Source: Planctomycetales bacterium 10988 (GTDB taxonomy: Bacteria > Planctomycetota > Planctomycetia > Pirellulales > Pb10988). From it: 64,000 nt of DNA. Below the pieces are notes generated by a model. That model was not told the DNA's origin. It made no database searches and saw nothing but the letters and a program-made list of their open reading frames with translations. Positions 12,853 through 64,000 of this stretch are shown in pieces (the stretch's first letter is position 1; each line of letters begins with the position of its first letter). Location of the stretch: contig CP043547.1 in the NCBI GenBank assembly GCA_009664345.1, positions 2,880,709 to 2,944,708 of the forward strand. The letters are read 5' to 3'. Both the position numbers and the translations under genes were made by a program.

Positions 12853-13392
12853 ATGATCGCCATGCAATTAGGCATTCCCCACCGGACCGATCTTGTCCTT
12901 CGACCTTTTCCCGAAGCGGTAGAGGCTTCGCTGCTTTATGCCTTTGTCGAGAAAAATCGCGAACACCTTTGCACGGGGATTCCTGAATTTGAGTCCGTTC
13001 AATCGGTCGAGTTTGCCCAGCAACTCCTGCAATTTCTCGAAGAAAATATGCAAGAGCAAACCGATTGGCACTATGCGATTTATCATCAAGAGGAATTCGT
13101 CGGCTACGTCGGGCTGAACGAAATCGACTGGACGAAACGCGAGGCGGAACTCGCTTACTGGATCGCCGAAGAGGCCCAAGGAAAAGGGATCGCCACCGAT
13201 GCCGCTTCCAGATTGCTCACTTATGGGGTCGACCATCTCGATCTCCGCTCCATTCATGCGGAGTGCGAACTCAAAAACCCCCGCAGTTATCGGGTTTTGG
13301 AACGTCTTCAATTCCAATGGCTCCACACCCGACTCGTTCCCCACGGAGACGATTTTCAATCCGGAGCAATAGGATATTTTGAATGGAAATAA
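12853..13392 (+). CDS. GNAT family N-acetyltransferase (RimJ/RimL-like)
   Basis: This 179-residue protein has the Acetyltransf_3 form of the GNAT fold, which uses acetyl-CoA to acetylate a protein N terminus or a small amine. Markers are RTDLVLRPFPEA at the N terminus, then GYVGLNEIDWTKREAELAYW. The acetyl-CoA loop is AQGKGIATDAASRLLTYG, and LDLRSIHAECELKNPRSYRV near the end is cited here as its N-x-x-S-x-x-V core. Such proteins include ribosomal protein acetyltransferases. The position just behind rpsL-rpsG suggests but does not prove a ribosomal substrate. ATG 12853 is used; ATG 12862 is also possible. It probably has its own promoter, since a terminator precedes it. Confidence 0.8.
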   Translation: MIAMQLGIPHRTDLVLRPFPEAVEASLLYAFVEKNREHLCTGIPEFESVQSVEFAQQLLQFLEENMQEQTDWHYAIYHQEEFVGYVGLNEIDWTKREAELAYWIAEEAQGKGIATDAASRLLTYGVDHLDLRSIHAECELKNPRSYRVLERLQFQWLHTRLVPHGDDFQSGAIGYFEWK

Positions 13393-13423
13393 TATCTTTT
13401 GATGGGGTAACGCGAAAACCAGG

Positions 13424-13612
13424 GGAACGGATCGTGTTCGGTTTTCAGTGTTCGGTGCTCGGTACACGCGGTGAAAACTATTTGGCTCCTTTTATCATCG
13501 CCGCTTCCTGAATTCTTTTGAGGATGGATTTCCCCACAGGATGGTCGTTCACCTGCTCTCGATATTCACTCCGAGGACCGAAAACTGAAAACCGAACACC
13601 GAAAACGAATCT
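13424..13612. repeat. Intergenic inverted-arm element A
   Basis: The left arm (13424-13464) carries GTGTTCGGTTTTCAGTGTTC and ends GGTAC. The right arm (13571-13612) is its near reverse complement, beginning CCGAGGACCGAAAACTGAAA. The centre is about 105 bases. Arms are built from a degenerate 7-8 base direct repeat (TTCGGTT/TTCGGTG). It lies between two convergent genes. Element D at 49027-49235 has almost the same arms but a different centre. Confidence 0.75.
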
Positions 13613-13659
13613 TCATCCTGCCATTCGCGAAACCCCGCCAAGGCGTGCTTTCTCAAACT

Positions 13660-15054
13660 TTATTCCACACTCCCAAAGAGCGTATTAAACGATTCTGCCA
13701 AAAGCGGGTGGGCGAAGATGCCGTCACGGAGTTGCGGATAGCGGAGCTTGCCCATCATGGCGAGTTGCAAAGCGGTCATGATCTCGCCCCCTTCGATCCC
13801 GAGGATGGCGACACCAAGGATTTCTTCCGATTCCGCATCTACGATCGCTTTCATCAACCCCCGCGTTTCATCCATTTCCAAGGCCCGCGCCACCCAAGTC
13901 ATGGGAATCTTGGCGACTTTAATCCTGCGACCACTCTCGCGAGCCTCTTTCTCACTCAGGCCGATGCGTCCCAGCTGCGGATCGGTAAAGACAGTGTACG
14001 GAACCGGCCGATCTTCTGTGGAAGGTTTCTGATCCTCTAAAAAAGCACTTTTGAGGATGCGGTAGTCGTCATAAGAAATGTGCGTAAAAAACGGCGGACC
14101 CTTCACATCTCCCACCGCATAGATGCCGGCGACCTCGGTTTCCAAGAACTTGTTTACTGGGACATAGCCATGCTTATCCGGTTCGATTCCGGCAGCGGAC
14201 AGGTTGAGAGTTTCGGTATTCGGCTCACGACCGATGGCAACGAGAAGATGCGTGGCATGAAGAGTTTCCCGATGATCTTGCTGAGCAATCGTCAGCTCCA
14301 GGCCTTCCTCGGTTCGGCCCCCTTCTTCGATACTTGCATTCAGCCAAAGATCGATGCCATCCTCGCGGAGAATCTTCGCCATCTCCTTGGCAACATCTTC
14401 ATCTTCACGAGGAACAAGTTGCGAACTATGTTGAATGATGGTGACTTTGCTACCGAAACGGCGGAACATCTGGCCAAATTCAAGCCCGATATACCCGCCC
14501 CCAAGAACAACCAAGTGTCCCGGAACTTCCGTCAGTTCCATGATCTCGGTCGAGTTGAGCAGATCCTCGCGGGCGAGGCCTTTAATAGTCGGAATGCGGG
14601 GCCGTCCGCCGGTGTTGAGAATGATTTTGTCGGCGGTTAAAAGGCGGGTGTTATTGTCCGCCATCTGAATTTTGACGGTTTTGGCATCGAGAAAGCTCCC
14701 TTCTCCGGCGATCAGGGCGATATGCTCATTTGCTTCGAGCTTCGATTTGCTGCCGGAACGGAAGGACTGAACGATGTCATCCTTCCGCTTACGAACGACC
14801 TCCAGATCGACCGAAACCGGCCCGGTCTTGACGCCATAATCTTCTCCACGTCGGGCAAGATAGGCGACGCGGGCACTGGCAACCATCGTTTTCGTCGGCG
14901 TACAGCCTTCATTGATACAGGTGCCGCCGACATGCTTTCGCTCAATCAGGGCAACCTTCCATCCGGCTTTGCCCAACGCTCCCGCGAGCGGATTCCCTGC
15001 TTGACCGGAACCGATAATAATCGCATCAAAGCGTTCCGCTTCTTGATTCACCAT
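13660..15054 (-). CDS. FAD-dependent pyridine nucleotide-disulfide oxidoreductase
   Basis: This 464-residue class I flavoprotein reductase belongs to the family of lipoamide dehydrogenase and mercuric reductase. The FAD-binding GSGQAG is at residues 15-20. The redox disulfide CINEGC is at 46-51 within GGTCINEGCTPTKT. An NAD(P)-binding GGGYIGLE motif lies near residue 184, and the second FAD motif YAVGDVKG near 313. The C-terminal dimer domain has HPLLAE where lipoamide dehydrogenases have the catalytic HPxxxE. It lacks the extra N-terminal HMA domain and the C-terminal Cys pair of true mercuric reductases, so the substrate is unknown. It is monocistronic and convergent with the GNAT gene. Confidence 0.85.
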   Translation of the reverse strand: MVNQEAERFDAIIIGSGQAGNPLAGALGKAGWKVALIERKHVGGTCINEGCTPTKTMVASARVAYLARRGEDYGVKTGPVSVDLEVVRKRKDDIVQSFRSGSKSKLEANEHIALIAGEGSFLDAKTVKIQMADNNTRLLTADKIILNTGGRPRIPTIKGLAREDLLNSTEIMELTEVPGHLVVLGGGYIGLEFGQMFRRFGSKVTIIQHSSQLVPREDEDVAKEMAKILREDGIDLWLNASIEEGGRTEEGLELTIAQQDHRETLHATHLLVAIGREPNTETLNLSAAGIEPDKHGYVPVNKFLETEVAGIYAVGDVKGPPFFTHISYDDYRILKSAFLEDQKPSTEDRPVPYTVFTDPQLGRIGLSEKEARESGRRIKVAKIPMTWVARALEMDETRGLMKAIVDAESEEILGVAILGIEGGEIMTALQLAMMGKLRYPQLRDGIFAHPLLAESFNTLFGSVE

Positions 15055-15949: not shown

Positions 15950-16109
15950 GGGGGTTTCAGGGTTCGGGTTTCAGGGTTCAGGTTTCAGATGTTAGCTTGA
16001 ATGCAGAAACAGGGCTCTTAAAATAAAGAACAACTGAATATCAAAACGAATGGCAGTCATTAAATTACTTGGCCCCGAACCCTGAAACCCGAAACCTGTA
16101 ACCTGTATG
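15950..16109. repeat. Intergenic inverted-arm element B
   Basis: The left arm (15950-15988) is a degenerate tandem of GGGTTTCA and GGGTTC units. The right arm (16071-16109) is the reverse complement of a similar tandem and shares a 17-base perfect match (TTCGGGTTTCAGGGTTC) with the left. The loop is about 80 bases. The right arm ends on the ATG of the HDAC gene, so it forms that gene's 5' untranslated end. Confidence 0.7.
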
Positions 16110-48316: not shown

Positions 48317-48994
48317 ATGGGCAGCTATCAGATTATTCCGCTCAAGCTCCAGTTCTCGAATGCTTTTTTGCTCAAAGGAGAGAAGATCGCTTTGGTCGAT
48401 ACCGGGGTCGCTTCCGATTTGCCAAAGTTGATCAAGCTCTTGGCCGTTCACAAAGTCACTCTCAAAGAGCTGGATTGCGTACTACTTACCCATGCCCATG
48501 GGGACCATGTCGGCAATGCCAAGCAAATCCAAGACGAATTCAAATGCCCGATCGCCATTCATCCGGCGGACGTAGATCGTTTAAAAGAGGGATATAACGG
48601 CAAACTCAAACCGGTGTATGCCGGAACGCAACTCATCACCAAGGTGGTTCCGCAACGCTTTACCCCGGTGACGGACAACTTGACCATGATCGAGGAAGGC
48701 CCGCTCGACTTCTTCGATTCCGACATTCAAGTCTTCCATACTCCGGGGCATACCCCCGGTTCGGTCTCACTCGGGATCGATTCCGAAAATGTCCTCGCTG
48801 GCGATTTGCTCATCGGCGGCTATCTAGGAGGGGTCTTCCGTTCGCACATCGCCCGCTATCCTTACTTCGCCGATTCCTTGGAAGAGGTCCGCACTTCCAC
48901 CAAAAAGCTCCTCGCCGAATCTTATCAAACCTACTATCTCGGACACGGAGGACCGGTTTCGAAAAACTCTGTGAAAGGGTTGATTCAGGGTTAA
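48317..48994 (+). CDS. Metallo-beta-lactamase fold hydrolase
   Basis: The 225-residue protein has the MBL fold with the metal motif HxHxDH at residues 59-64 (LLTHAHGDHVGNAKQ). Further metal ligands are expected in FHTPGHTPGSVSLG and in the C-terminal YYLGHGGPVS. Family members include glyoxalase II-like thioesterases and lactonases; the substrate is unknown. GAGAGGAAAT precedes ATG 48317. The stop is followed directly by repeat element D. Confidence 0.88.
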   Translation: MGSYQIIPLKLQFSNAFLLKGEKIALVDTGVASDLPKLIKLLAVHKVTLKELDCVLLTHAHGDHVGNAKQIQDEFKCPIAIHPADVDRLKEGYNGKLKPVYAGTQLITKVVPQRFTPVTDNLTMIEEGPLDFFDSDIQVFHTPGHTPGSVSLGIDSENVLAGDLLIGGYLGGVFRSHIARYPYFADSLEEVRTSTKKLLAESYQTYYLGHGGPVSKNSVKGLIQG

Positions 48995-49026
48995 CCGGGC
49001 ATCGGCAGGGCTGCCTGAAAGAAGTA

Positions 49027-49235
49027 GGAACGGATCGTGTTCGGTTTTCAGTGTTCGGTGTTCGGTACTTGTGGCGAACACGAAGGTGCTGGCGAAAGCC
49101 GAATCAGCCTGAATATAGATTGAGTTGACTTCGAGAATATCCTTTTTTTCAACCTTCAATCTCAAGAATGGAACAGTCTTCGAAGATTTTCACTCCGAGA
49201 ACCGAACACTGAAAACCGAACACCGAACACGATTC
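49027..49235. repeat. Intergenic inverted-arm element D
   Basis: The left arm (49027-49068) differs from the left arm of element A at 13424 by a single base over about 41 positions. The right arm (49193-49235) is its reverse complement and is close to the right arm of A. The centre of about 125 bases is mostly unrelated to that of A. It lies right after the MBL hydrolase gene. Confidence 0.75.
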
Positions 49236-49444
49236 ATCTCCCTGGCTTCCGTGTTCCCTTTCCAATCCATGCTCCATTTTAAACAACCTTTTCAATTATT
49301 CACTTTCTTTCAATTATATTATTTATTCAACCGATACCGTTTGATGTATGAATAGCTTGCAGGGAGGGGTTGGAATTTATTTTTGATCCTTCGCGGGGTG
49401 AGTTTCTCACTTTCAACTCACGATTCGGCATTGAGGAGAATAAA

Positions 49445-61444: not shown

Positions 61445-64000
61445 TTATTGAATTCCTAGTCCACTAAATAGTTTATCCACTTTTTCAGACTGAGAATAAA
61501 AAGTGTTTACTTCGTCCCACCAAGATTTTTTAGGTTTTAAATATTCAAGCTTTACATCTTCAGGTGTTTCTTGCTCTGTAGAATTTGTATCTATCGAAAA
61601 AGTGAACATGGAAGACATAGGGCCTGACAGTTCTTCAAATAAATCTCTTGATGAAAAATTATATCCCCCGGCATTAAATAAACCGTTGTAATTCGTTGGG
61701 GAACCCGCAAAGAAATTCGATAAATCGTTTAAATTTGTTCCATCAAAGACTCTTGTATGCGGACCGCCGCTCGCTCCTGGAACGGTGATGATATCGAAGA
61801 AGCCATCGTTGTTGATATCCGCTGAAGCAACACGTACGCCCCCGGTGAAAGATGGATGATACGCATAAAAGTTTTGTAGCAAGCCAGCATCGGCGGAACT
61901 AAAGACTTTAATATGCGGGCCTCCTCCAGCTCCCGGAGAAGTGATCAAGTCATCAAGCCCGTCGTGATTGATATCGCCGGCTGCAACATACACTCCGCCG
62001 GTGAAAGCGGGATCATAGGCATAAAAGTTTGTCGCTGGTCCCGATTTTTGTTGACCGGTTCTTCCATCAAAGACACGAACATGCGGACCACCTCCGGCTC
62101 CTGGCGAGGTGATGATTTCCGCAAAGCCGTCGCCATCAATATCCCCGGCGGCCACGCGAACGCCGACGGTGACATTCGGAGCATAAGCATAAAACTCCGT
62201 GATGAGTGAACCGGTTTGCCCACTAAAGACTTTAATATGCGGACCCCCTCCGGCATCGACCGAGGTGATGATGTCATCAAAGCCGTCTTTGTTTACATCC
62301 CCGACCGCGACATAGAGACCGACAACGACATTCGGAGCATAGGCATAAAAATCGTGCGGGCCATTTTGAATCATCTGCCCCGTTGTACTATCAAAAACAC
62401 GCACATGAGGACCGCCACCCAAGCCGGGAACTGTCACGATATCAAGCGTGCCATCTCCATTGATATCCCCGGTGGCAACGCGGATGCCTCCGGTAAAGTC
62501 TTCTGTATAAGGGAAGAAACTAGAAAGTTCGGTCCCGGTTTCATCAAAGATTCTCACAATGGACGGTTCCCCATAGTCGGAACCGGTAACGATAAGTGGC
62601 TCTTCCTCCCGCAAGTCAAGCGACCAAAGCTCCGACCCCAAAGACCCCCCATTCGCGGAGAACATCAAGGTCCCATTAAAATTCGTTAGGCTGAGAGGAC
62701 GATATATTTCATTGACAATAGGAGCAAATCCAACCTTCTCTTCAAACTCTTTGACAAGAATGGTACCACTTGCAGTCCCATCCGACATCCAGAGCAGGCT
62801 ACTTCTATCTCCATCAGAAGCTTGAAAAAACAAAGTGCCATTCACGTTGGTCAAACTTCGTGGAGTACTCGAATAAGGTCCTTCATTGATATCTGCGACC
62901 AGCCTCTGATTTCCGCCATTCAAATCACTCTTCCAAAGTTCCACCCCAGTCGAACCGTCGTTGGCAGTGAAAAAGAGCGTGCCATTGACTTCCGTCCAGA
63001 TACTCCTCAATAGATTTCCGAAAGTTTCAGTCACCCCGGAAGTGGTGTTATCGACTCTCCAAAATTCCGTCCCGCTGGAAGTGTTGGCATAAAAATAAAG
63101 GAAATCATCGAGCACAGTGAGTGAAACAGGATCAGAATCCCCCTCGGGATTGATATCCGCAAAGAGAGTTGTCCCCGTTGAGGTGCCATCGCTTATCCAA
63201 AGCTCTCGACCGGTAGAAGGATGGGTAGCGGCAAAGAAAAGAGTACCGTGGAAACTTGTCAATTCGTTAGGAGAGGAACTACCGGTGGGATCGATATCCG
63301 CAACCATCGCCGTCCCGGCGGAAGTTCCATCACTCTTCCACAGCTCTCGCCCATAAGTAGCGGAATTCTCCGCAAAGAATAAGGTACCATCATGGTTTGT
63401 CAAATCGGAAGGATCATTCAAAACAGTCACCATGGAGGTACCGGCTGCCGTTCCATCTGTCTTCCAAAGGACATAGTCATTTGATTGGTTTTGAGCTAGA
63501 AAATAAACCGTCCCTGCCACTTCGGTCAGTTGTGTGGGATAGGAAGAATCCGCCCCTGGAAAAATGTCGGCCAGTAATCTGGTCCCATTCGTGGAGCCAT
63601 CACTCGCCCACAACTCTCTTCCGTGACTGCCATCGTCCGCGGTAAAATACAACGTTCCCTTGATATTTTGGAGATCGCGAGGAGAGGAGTAGAGAGTATC
63701 CCCTTCCAAAATATCTTTTAGTAAGAACGTACCTGCTGAAGTTCCATCGCTTCTCCATAGCTCCACGCCGGCGGTAAAGCTATTCGCTGTAAAGAAGAGC
63801 GTGCCATTACTGTTGAAAAAATTGTCTGGATCGGAACTGAGAACGCCTGGATCAATGTCTTTCACCAAAATCGTTCCGGCAGAAGTTCCATCAGTCTTCC
63901 ACAATTCATAGCCACTTGTTCCACTATTTGCACTAAAAAAGGCAGTGCCGTTGACATTGGTCAAGGAAAGGATTTTTGTGGACTCACTTCCACTCTTTAT
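61445..64000 (-). CDS. ELWxxDGT / FG-GAP repeat surface protein (5' end beyond window)
   Basis: The frame is open through the right edge of the window, so the start and any signal peptide lie outside. About 850 residues are visible. The first 500 or so are a chain of beta-propeller-like repeats with the signature ELWKSDGTSAGT and its spacer VNGTLFFTAND. After these come six FG-GAP/VCBS-type units with calcium-binding DINxDGxxD loops and the marker GGGPHVRVFD. The last 60 residues are a charged tail with a predicted coil (SQSEKVDKLFSGLG). Such proteins are usually secreted or surface-bound and act in adhesion. No anchor motif is seen at the C terminus. Confidence 0.85.
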   Translation of the reverse strand: MKSGSESTKILSLTNVNGTAFFSANSGTSGYELWKTDGTSAGTILVKDIDPGVLSSDPDNFFNSNGTLFFTANSFTAGVELWRSDGTSAGTFLLKDILEGDTLYSSPRDLQNIKGTLYFTADDGSHGRELWASDGSTNGTRLLADIFPGADSSYPTQLTEVAGTVYFLAQNQSNDYVLWKTDGTAAGTSMVTVLNDPSDLTNHDGTLFFAENSATYGRELWKSDGTSAGTAMVADIDPTGSSSPNELTSFHGTLFFAATHPSTGRELWISDGTSTGTTLFADINPEGDSDPVSLTVLDDFLYFYANTSSGTEFWRVDNTTSGVTETFGNLLRSIWTEVNGTLFFTANDGSTGVELWKSDLNGGNQRLVADINEGPYSSTPRSLTNVNGTLFFQASDGDRSSLLWMSDGTASGTILVKEFEEKVGFAPIVNEIYRPLSLTNFNGTLMFSANGGSLGSELWSLDLREEEPLIVTGSDYGEPSIVRIFDETGTELSSFFPYTEDFTGGIRVATGDINGDGTLDIVTVPGLGGGPHVRVFDSTTGQMIQNGPHDFYAYAPNVVVGLYVAVGDVNKDGFDDIITSVDAGGGPHIKVFSGQTGSLITEFYAYAPNVTVGVRVAAGDIDGDGFAEIITSPGAGGGPHVRVFDGRTGQQKSGPATNFYAYDPAFTGGVYVAAGDINHDGLDDLITSPGAGGGPHIKVFSSADAGLLQNFYAYHPSFTGGVRVASADINNDGFFDIITVPGASGGPHTRVFDGTNLNDLSNFFAGSPTNYNGLFNAGGYNFSSRDLFEELSGPMSSMFTFSIDTNSTEQETPEDVKLEYLKPKKSWWDEVNTFYSQSEKVDKLFSGLGIQ
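61740..62560 (-). repeat. Tandem coding repeat (six FG-GAP units)
   Basis: Six imperfect direct repeats of about 160-200 bases encode the GGGPHxxVF ... AGDIxxDGFxDIIT unit. Phrases such as the codons for FYAYAPN recur almost unchanged on the minus strand, which suggests unit duplication. Confidence 0.8.

Follow-up and report, generated by a model that had tools for sequence, protein, structure and literature searches.

Two intergenic stretches of a planctomycete chromosome, elements A and D, carry long inverted arms built of repeated 7-nt units and raise a simple question: what are they, and what put them there? The first-pass annotation proposed a dispersed, non-autonomous mobile element, a REP-like structure or a family of structured RNAs. 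We suggest, with a probability of about 0.7, that A and D belong, with their relatives, to a class of heptad-armed mobile elements, as MITE-like members without a gene. The complete form of this class would be about 0.5 kb long and consist of a heptad arm, a small four-helix-bundle gene (IVP/S23, PF05635) and an inverted heptad arm.

The window is the whole stretch of 64,000 nt that we analyzed, and its features are given in Table 1. The two elements are real, but the coordinates first given to them were too short and covered the inner part, since the arm matches extend further on both sides. As had been claimed, the left arms of A and D are identical at all but 1 of 41 aligned positions, the right arms are very similar (6 of 52 positions differ), and the centers are unrelated. 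The reason for the last is that A and D belong to different subgroups, in each of which the center recurs elsewhere. Both elements indeed stand behind a gene. A fills the space from stop codon to stop codon between two convergent genes, a GNAT acetyltransferase on its left (ending at 13392, + strand) and a disulphide-oxidoreductase on its right (ending at 13660, - strand), and D comes after the stop codon of a metallo-beta-lactamase-fold gene at 48994. The 29-nt core arms are 93% complementary within each element, at spacings of 108 and 129 nt. As RNA, A is predicted to form one long hairpin (-100.3 kcal/mol, z -5.6), and the predicted fold of D reaches -101 kcal/mol (z -4.6). Both have the inverted period-7 arms of the proposed class and, being short, gene-less, dispersed and bounded by inverted repeats, the features of MITEs; no gene, and hence no IVP gene, lies between their arms. 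They are located between protein genes and not inside an rRNA gene: the window has no Rfam rRNA match, and no Rfam family of any kind reached its gathering score there.

Table 1. Heptad-armed elements of the window and their parts (window positions, with genome positions where marked).
Feature	Position	Strand	Remark
Window	genome 2880709-2944708		single 6.65 Mb contig
Element A as first described	13424-13612		inner part only
Element D as first described	49027-49235		inner part only
Element A, both arms and outer domains	13388..13654	.	arm profile matches genome 2894096-2894194, 2894252-2894362
Heptads, left arm of A	13434..13462	+	
Heptads, right arm of A	13571..13606	-	
Element D, both arms and outer domains	48993..49273	.	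arm profile matches genome 2929701-2929813, 2929886-2929981
Heptads, left arm of D	49037..49065	+	
Heptads, right arm of D	49195..49230	-	
Third heptad element, GG-type heptads, inverted arms	15953..16103	.	

Period 7 at a level of at least 21 of 28 positions is confined, within the window, to A, D and a third element, whose right end lies 3 nt upstream of the ATG (16107) of a histone-deacetylase-like gene and not behind a stop codon. In the window and control stretches together (464 kb), lag 7 was found at eight places, lag 6 at two, and lags 5 and 8 to 11 at none. The window also holds, within a called gene (61730-62521), a 144-nt repeat in five copies that are 63-73% alike.

By the first-pass annotation, finding A and D to be the only two copies would have removed the case for a family. 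They are not: an arm profile together with exact heptad runs places the A/D family at 67 sites of the 6.65 Mb chromosome, a lower bound because the stretches fetched were chosen from the searches. Arms are found on both strands in 37 of these elements and on one strand only in 30. BLAST of A against its own genome gave 119 matching pieces, and three GKKTTCR heptads in a row matched 217 times, versus 0 for the reversed-pattern control. The profile, built from 64 arms, matched 85 times in the stretches fetched, where a few arms are hit in two pieces. Each arm is about 100 nt long, and two arms oppose each other around a center. Reading inward, the arm opens with a G-rich stretch, followed by a small G+C hairpin, a spacer (about GGTTTCACGAACACCAGGGTGACGAATC), the heptads and an inner motif, about GTACTTGGGGTGAAAATCG..GGCAGGTGAAA in the arm alignment. 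Two of the tracts have grown to 23 exact copies of GGGTTCA (genome 3843628) and 17 of GGTTTCA (genome 4406994). One further pair of arms, about 1 kb apart (3997222 and 3998187; 3997222-3998207), encloses two ORFs of 129 and 131 aa. By eye the two resemble each other; neither matches Pfam or NCBIfam, and they are perhaps other passenger genes.

The centers bear on how the family spread. That of A recurs at 2.53, 2.74 and 2.83 Mb and that of D at 2.08 (two copies) and 2.69 Mb; further subgroups share a center at 4.37, 4.39, 4.40 and 4.80 Mb and at 4.20 and 4.24 Mb. Elements with a common center occupy different gene settings, which indicates that arm, center and arm were copied as a unit, and most alignments between them end within the outer domain. 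With 67 places, centers common to unrelated gene settings and a sibling that has the same arms around a gene (see below), the proposal of a dispersed, probably non-autonomous mobile element is supported. It was understated, and the first-pass annotation had no means of seeing the outer domain with its hairpin, the placement behind stop codons or the IVP gene. Many centers also contain the small palindrome AAAAAGTGCTTTTT or a variant of it, sometimes twice.

Are the arms maintained as paired RNA? The covariation that had been suggested as a check was not seen: in 26 two-armed elements, arms of the same element were not more alike than arms of different elements (outer domain,.437 versus.472; heptads,.780 versus.796; inner motif,.294 versus.312), which gives no sign of co-evolution. 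Single elements fold well, yet there is no Rfam match and no excess likeness within elements, and the reading as a family of structured RNAs is therefore neither shown nor excluded. A search of the order with the arm consensus, as also suggested, did return matches in 9 of 396 genomes, but the eight besides this genome match only within positions 40-84 of the 107-nt query, around the heptads. The contigs of named genomes, a set that may leave out this genome, had no match to the arm.

Genes were called with a simple codon-usage finder, and none of the 67 element midpoints falls inside one; 23 elements lie between convergent, 38 between tandem and 6 between divergent genes. The outer domain, with its G-rich hairpin, usually begins directly behind a stop codon. 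Among the 81 arms that could be anchored (from the 85 matches), 57 lie at most 75 nt from a stop codon pointing at the arm; the stop is 41-61 nt ahead of the first heptad in 42 of these 57, with a few anchors plainly misplaced, and 50-56 nt ahead, i.e., directly at the outer end of the arm, in 24. Of the 38 tandem elements, 25 come within 15 nt of the stop and 3 within that distance on the start side; random placement in the same gap would bring 5.3 elements to the stop, and none of 100,000 simulations reached 25. Two-armed elements between convergent genes abut stop codons at both ends in 11 of 13 cases.

This placement could also be expected of host structures at 3' ends, bidirectional terminators or mRNA stabilizers that the host has spread and retains, in the manner of REPs behind stop codons, with the IVP copy being a later insertion into one of them. 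The strong hairpins of A and D would suit such a role, as would the outer domain, whose conservation looks higher in the 43 arms used that face a stop than in the 24 others. However, gene ends without an element lack such hairpins: the mean fold energy of the first 40 nt is -4.4 at 284 control gene ends, compared with -8.7 at 74 element ends. This also rules out that the outer hairpin is the common terminator of the genome. Neither does the family look like intrinsic terminators, since the hairpin is followed by about GGTTTCACGAACACC, with no T-run by eye. Moreover, IVP genes of many phyla are framed by the same architecture of heptads, and those elements have empty sites, as described below. 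We consider a host origin unlikely. Outside the known arms, the outer domain had five matches, four of which are heptad elements by eye and one of which is in coding sequence.

What, then, could move these elements? Two arms 0.65 kb apart (5755759 and 5756412; 5755759-5756515) enclose an ORF of 120 aa that matches PF05635 (23S_rRNA_IVP, IVP/S23; 9e-32) and TIGR02436 (four helix bundle protein). These are arms of the A/D family (89.5 and 73.7 bits against its profile) that match each other over about 107 nt, and the left one begins where an aldehyde dehydrogenase gene has its stop codon. Inverted heptad tracts enclose all four PF05635 genes found in the genome. The heptad is particular to each gene; at the other three it is CCACTCC-like, TATTCCC (28 copies) and CTCGCCC-like. 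The CTCGCCC-like tracts are weak by lag score (16 and 17 of 28) but clear as an inverted match (54 versus at most 23 to other elements). Overall, the inverted flanks of the four genes score 37, 37, 54 and 127 with their own partner, versus 14-25 with the other three. GKKTTCR heptads adjoin an IVP gene in this genome and in genomes G020 and G030, and in G043 only as a broken run. Against the proposed reading, none was found at 5 of 5 IVP loci examined in G004, 6 of 6 in G022, 1 of 1 in G013 and 5 of 6 in G050, genomes that also hold many GKKTTCR heptads elsewhere. A heptad common to gene-less and gene-bearing copies was thus seen in this genome, G020 and G030, but not in those four.

The association reaches far beyond this genome. 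We compared 113 IVP loci: 33 from planctomycetes (4 from this genome, 29 from relatives) and 80 further ones, which are the best 80 of at least 588 confirmed matches and thus chosen by similarity rather than sampled at random. At the planctomycete loci, lag 7 matches on average at 20.5 of 28 positions in the best place within 500 nt, versus 13.7 farther away, and lags 4-6 and 8-12 differ in no such way. The further loci give 20.6 near and 14.2 far (one flank is a run of N); lag 14 shows up as a harmonic, and lag 8 is slightly in excess (12 of 155 near flanks versus 1 of 281). Counting as positive a locus with lag 7 at 20 of 28 or more in at least one flank within 500 nt (N excluded), 87 of the 113 loci are positive (29 of 33 and 58 of 80), compared with 0-7 at other lags, and 26 show no clear heptads by this score. 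By record titles, the 80 loci belong to 17 broad groups, 16 bacterial and 1 archaeal, and 15 of these have a positive locus. Twenty more planctomycete loci added 15 positives, and IVP loci on viral contigs were positive in 21 of 29 cases; phage records had no match to the one IVP query used.

The arms of these loci are arranged as in A and D. An inverted match is the better one in 71 of 79 two-armed loci and a direct match in 8; the inverted score is 43.4 within an element and 13.2 between elements, and the left arm is G-rich inward in 73 of the 79. The outer hairpin domain is described for the A/D family, and the other IVP elements are compared by their heptads. Like the A/D family, the IVP loci have arms at the neighboring stop codon, which often lies within the first heptads: for gene ends we counted 95 facing arm ends, of which 65 fall in the range from 30 nt inside the stop to 10 nt behind it, 13 reach deeper into the open frame and 17 stand farther away. 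At the other side, 37 of 55 arm ends facing a gene start overlap the longest possible frame or come within 10 nt of it, which suggests that IVP elements tend to fill the junction. Insertion into the loop of a terminator would leave complementary outer flanks, and these are not supported at IVP elements (11.35 versus 10.82).

Do the gene-bearing relatives actually move? One IVP query matched 27 plasmid records, of which nine were looked at, and flanks were compared at eight sites (seven records and a second insertion in one Nostoc plasmid). Cyanobacterial plasmids were found to have occupied and empty sites, at or near stop codons, in DNA that is 90-98% identical. In Trichormus variabilis plasmid C, the element interrupts a gap of 13 nt behind a stop codon, and the site is empty in plasmids of Aulosira, Nostoc linckia and Fremyella (97.3-97.7% identical). 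Here, and at this one empty site only, we see a 5-bp target duplication, GTAAT, which contains the stop TAA. At a TAATG overlap of stop and start, Nostoc ATCC 53789 carries an element and Nostoc C052 none; in C057 stop and start are a few bases apart there, and only ATG is repeated. Another junction of the same operon is occupied in Nostoc C052 pC052_D, with no clear duplication. In Picosynechococcus PCC 7003, the element lies between cas10 and cmr3, where PCC 7002 (89.8% identical) has a gap of 12 nt, and in an Aulosira plasmid it is about 30 bp upstream of the stop codon of its relatives. The plasmid pC052_D holds another element behind a TraM-like gene. C057 has none at this site, and its spacer differs in part; in Nostoc ATCC 53789, a heptad element without a gene stands at the very same stop codon. 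Two comparisons are weaker, an nrd site (85% identity) and a cas6/cas4 site with a different spacer in the relative. The elements of the Trichormus plasmid, of the second junction in the shared operon and of the Aulosira plasmid are near-identical at their starts, i.e., much the same element stands at three junctions. Occupied and empty sites in plasmid DNA of 90-98% identity thus show, by sequence comparison, that gene-bearing elements move. The insertions at cas6/cas4 and cas10/cmr3 are inside CRISPR operons, and such elements may explain the IVP matches of CRISPR neighborhood surveys. "IVP" appears in a figure legend on CRISPR (PMC10910872).

If these elements move, is the IVP gene part of the machinery or a passenger on arms that an unrelated transposase recognizes? 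The arm pair at 3997222/3998187, with two other ORFs without a Pfam match, could speak for a passenger, and IVP is to our knowledge a small protein with no known catalytic motif (a solved structure is 2gsc). Yet a passenger should vary, and the IVP link recurs with unrelated heptads in many phyla; a search of the genome for PF01797, the only transposase family searched for, found no Y1 transposase. A mere passenger therefore seems improbable to us. The same search (0 matches in this genome; the control is present in 5 of 14 genomes) gives no support to mobilization by RAYT or to a REP-like nature in the strict, RAYT-driven sense. REPs and REPINs do consist of two inverted units around a variable center, dispersed between genes and often behind stop codons, but the arms of the A/D family are longer and have heptads. 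ERIC, Correia, NEMIS and YPAL elements are short, dispersed, imperfect palindromes of MITE type without genes; the A/D family differs in its heptad arms and in a sibling with an IVP gene rather than a classical transposase. Integron attC sites were dropped because the elements are long, symmetric and not in arrays. Finally, replication slippage at gene ends, with inverted pairs as by-products, may explain the length of the tracts, whose heptad number varies (two tracts with 23 and 17 exact copies, another with 28 next to an IVP gene) and whose kind is reported to be the commonest long simple repeat in many bacteria (PMC4692102, PMC4679880, in the parts seen), but it yields no inverted partners, no non-repeat outer domain confined to elements, no common centers and no clean empty sites, is contradicted for the A/D family as a whole and is to us the least credible origin by far.

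Among the closest known counterparts of the proposed class are the intervening sequences (IVS) of 23S rRNA genes in Coxiella, Leptospira and others, where, according to the parts of the report available to us, an IVP ORF lies within terminal inverted repeats that form a stem (PMC4990558). In Coxiella, GACAGAT heptamers of varying number precede the S23p ORF. These IVS are described in rRNA genes and carry the ORF; the elements studied here occur in many copies per genome, at stop codons between protein genes, and the A/D family mostly lacks the gene. The GGGAATC heptamers of Xanthomonas form inverted pairs (70 and 75 cases) and are biased to lie over stop codons or within 50 bp of them (Rehm et al. 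2015, PMC4692102). They have no bias on the chromosome, unlike the A/D family, and were read as G-quadruplex repeats; the passages we consulted mention no IVP gene or outer domain. The TAACTGA repeats of Beggiatoaceae are intergenic heptamers at gene borders, with stops in all frames, but from what we have seen of the report they are direct and mostly ahead of start codons, with one inverted case (PMC4679880). In the parts of the open-access literature that we covered, we found nothing that connects arms of heptamers with IVP genes and with insertion at the stop codon.

How might elements of the heptad-armed IVP class move? They would insert at tight gene junctions, at or near the stop codon, so that an arm becomes the 3' end of the gene and the arms can pair into a long hairpin. 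The heptad arms would be the recognized ends, and gene-less copies, A and D among them, would be moved in trans by the IVP protein and a further enzyme. A reverse transcriptase is possible in this role because Avd, which IVP resembles, serves as the partner of one (PMC10053308, seen in part), and the genome has seven RVT_1 matches. In RNA, the paired arms could make 3' ends that are protected or processed by RNase III, and a route through RNA is conceivable. We can go further and imagine that IVP/S23 elements select sites of translation termination, with IVP, a protein that takes its name from rRNA elements, guiding their RNA to ribosomes, that RNA joining mRNA at its stops and 23S rRNA in hairpin loops, a reverse transcriptase fixing them in DNA in trans, the heptad arms as recognition ends and abundant simple heptamers as gene-less progeny. 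This extension is decidedly speculative, and we think it quite unlikely as it stands.

The proposed class would have consequences for annotation. IVP genes ("four helix bundle protein" or "S23 ribosomal protein") are widespread, with no settled function, and bacterial heptamer repeats have so far been attributed to slippage or G-quadruplexes. One mobile element at stop codons would unite the IVS of rRNA genes, the heptamer pairs of Xanthomonas and the IVP genes in CRISPR and conjugation operons, and would make the function of the IVP protein testable. An IVP gene adjoining CRISPR genes should then not be counted as part of that system without a test.

The chromosomal distribution of the A/D family is uneven (Rayleigh R 0.54), with 65 of the 67 elements within 1.9-5.8 Mb. 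In sampled stretches, GC skew did not point clearly to an origin. The better dnaA match is at 0.20 Mb (200706), and 58 of the 67 elements lie in the half of the chromosome farther from it; a second, weaker DnaA-domain gene is present at genome position 4206630.
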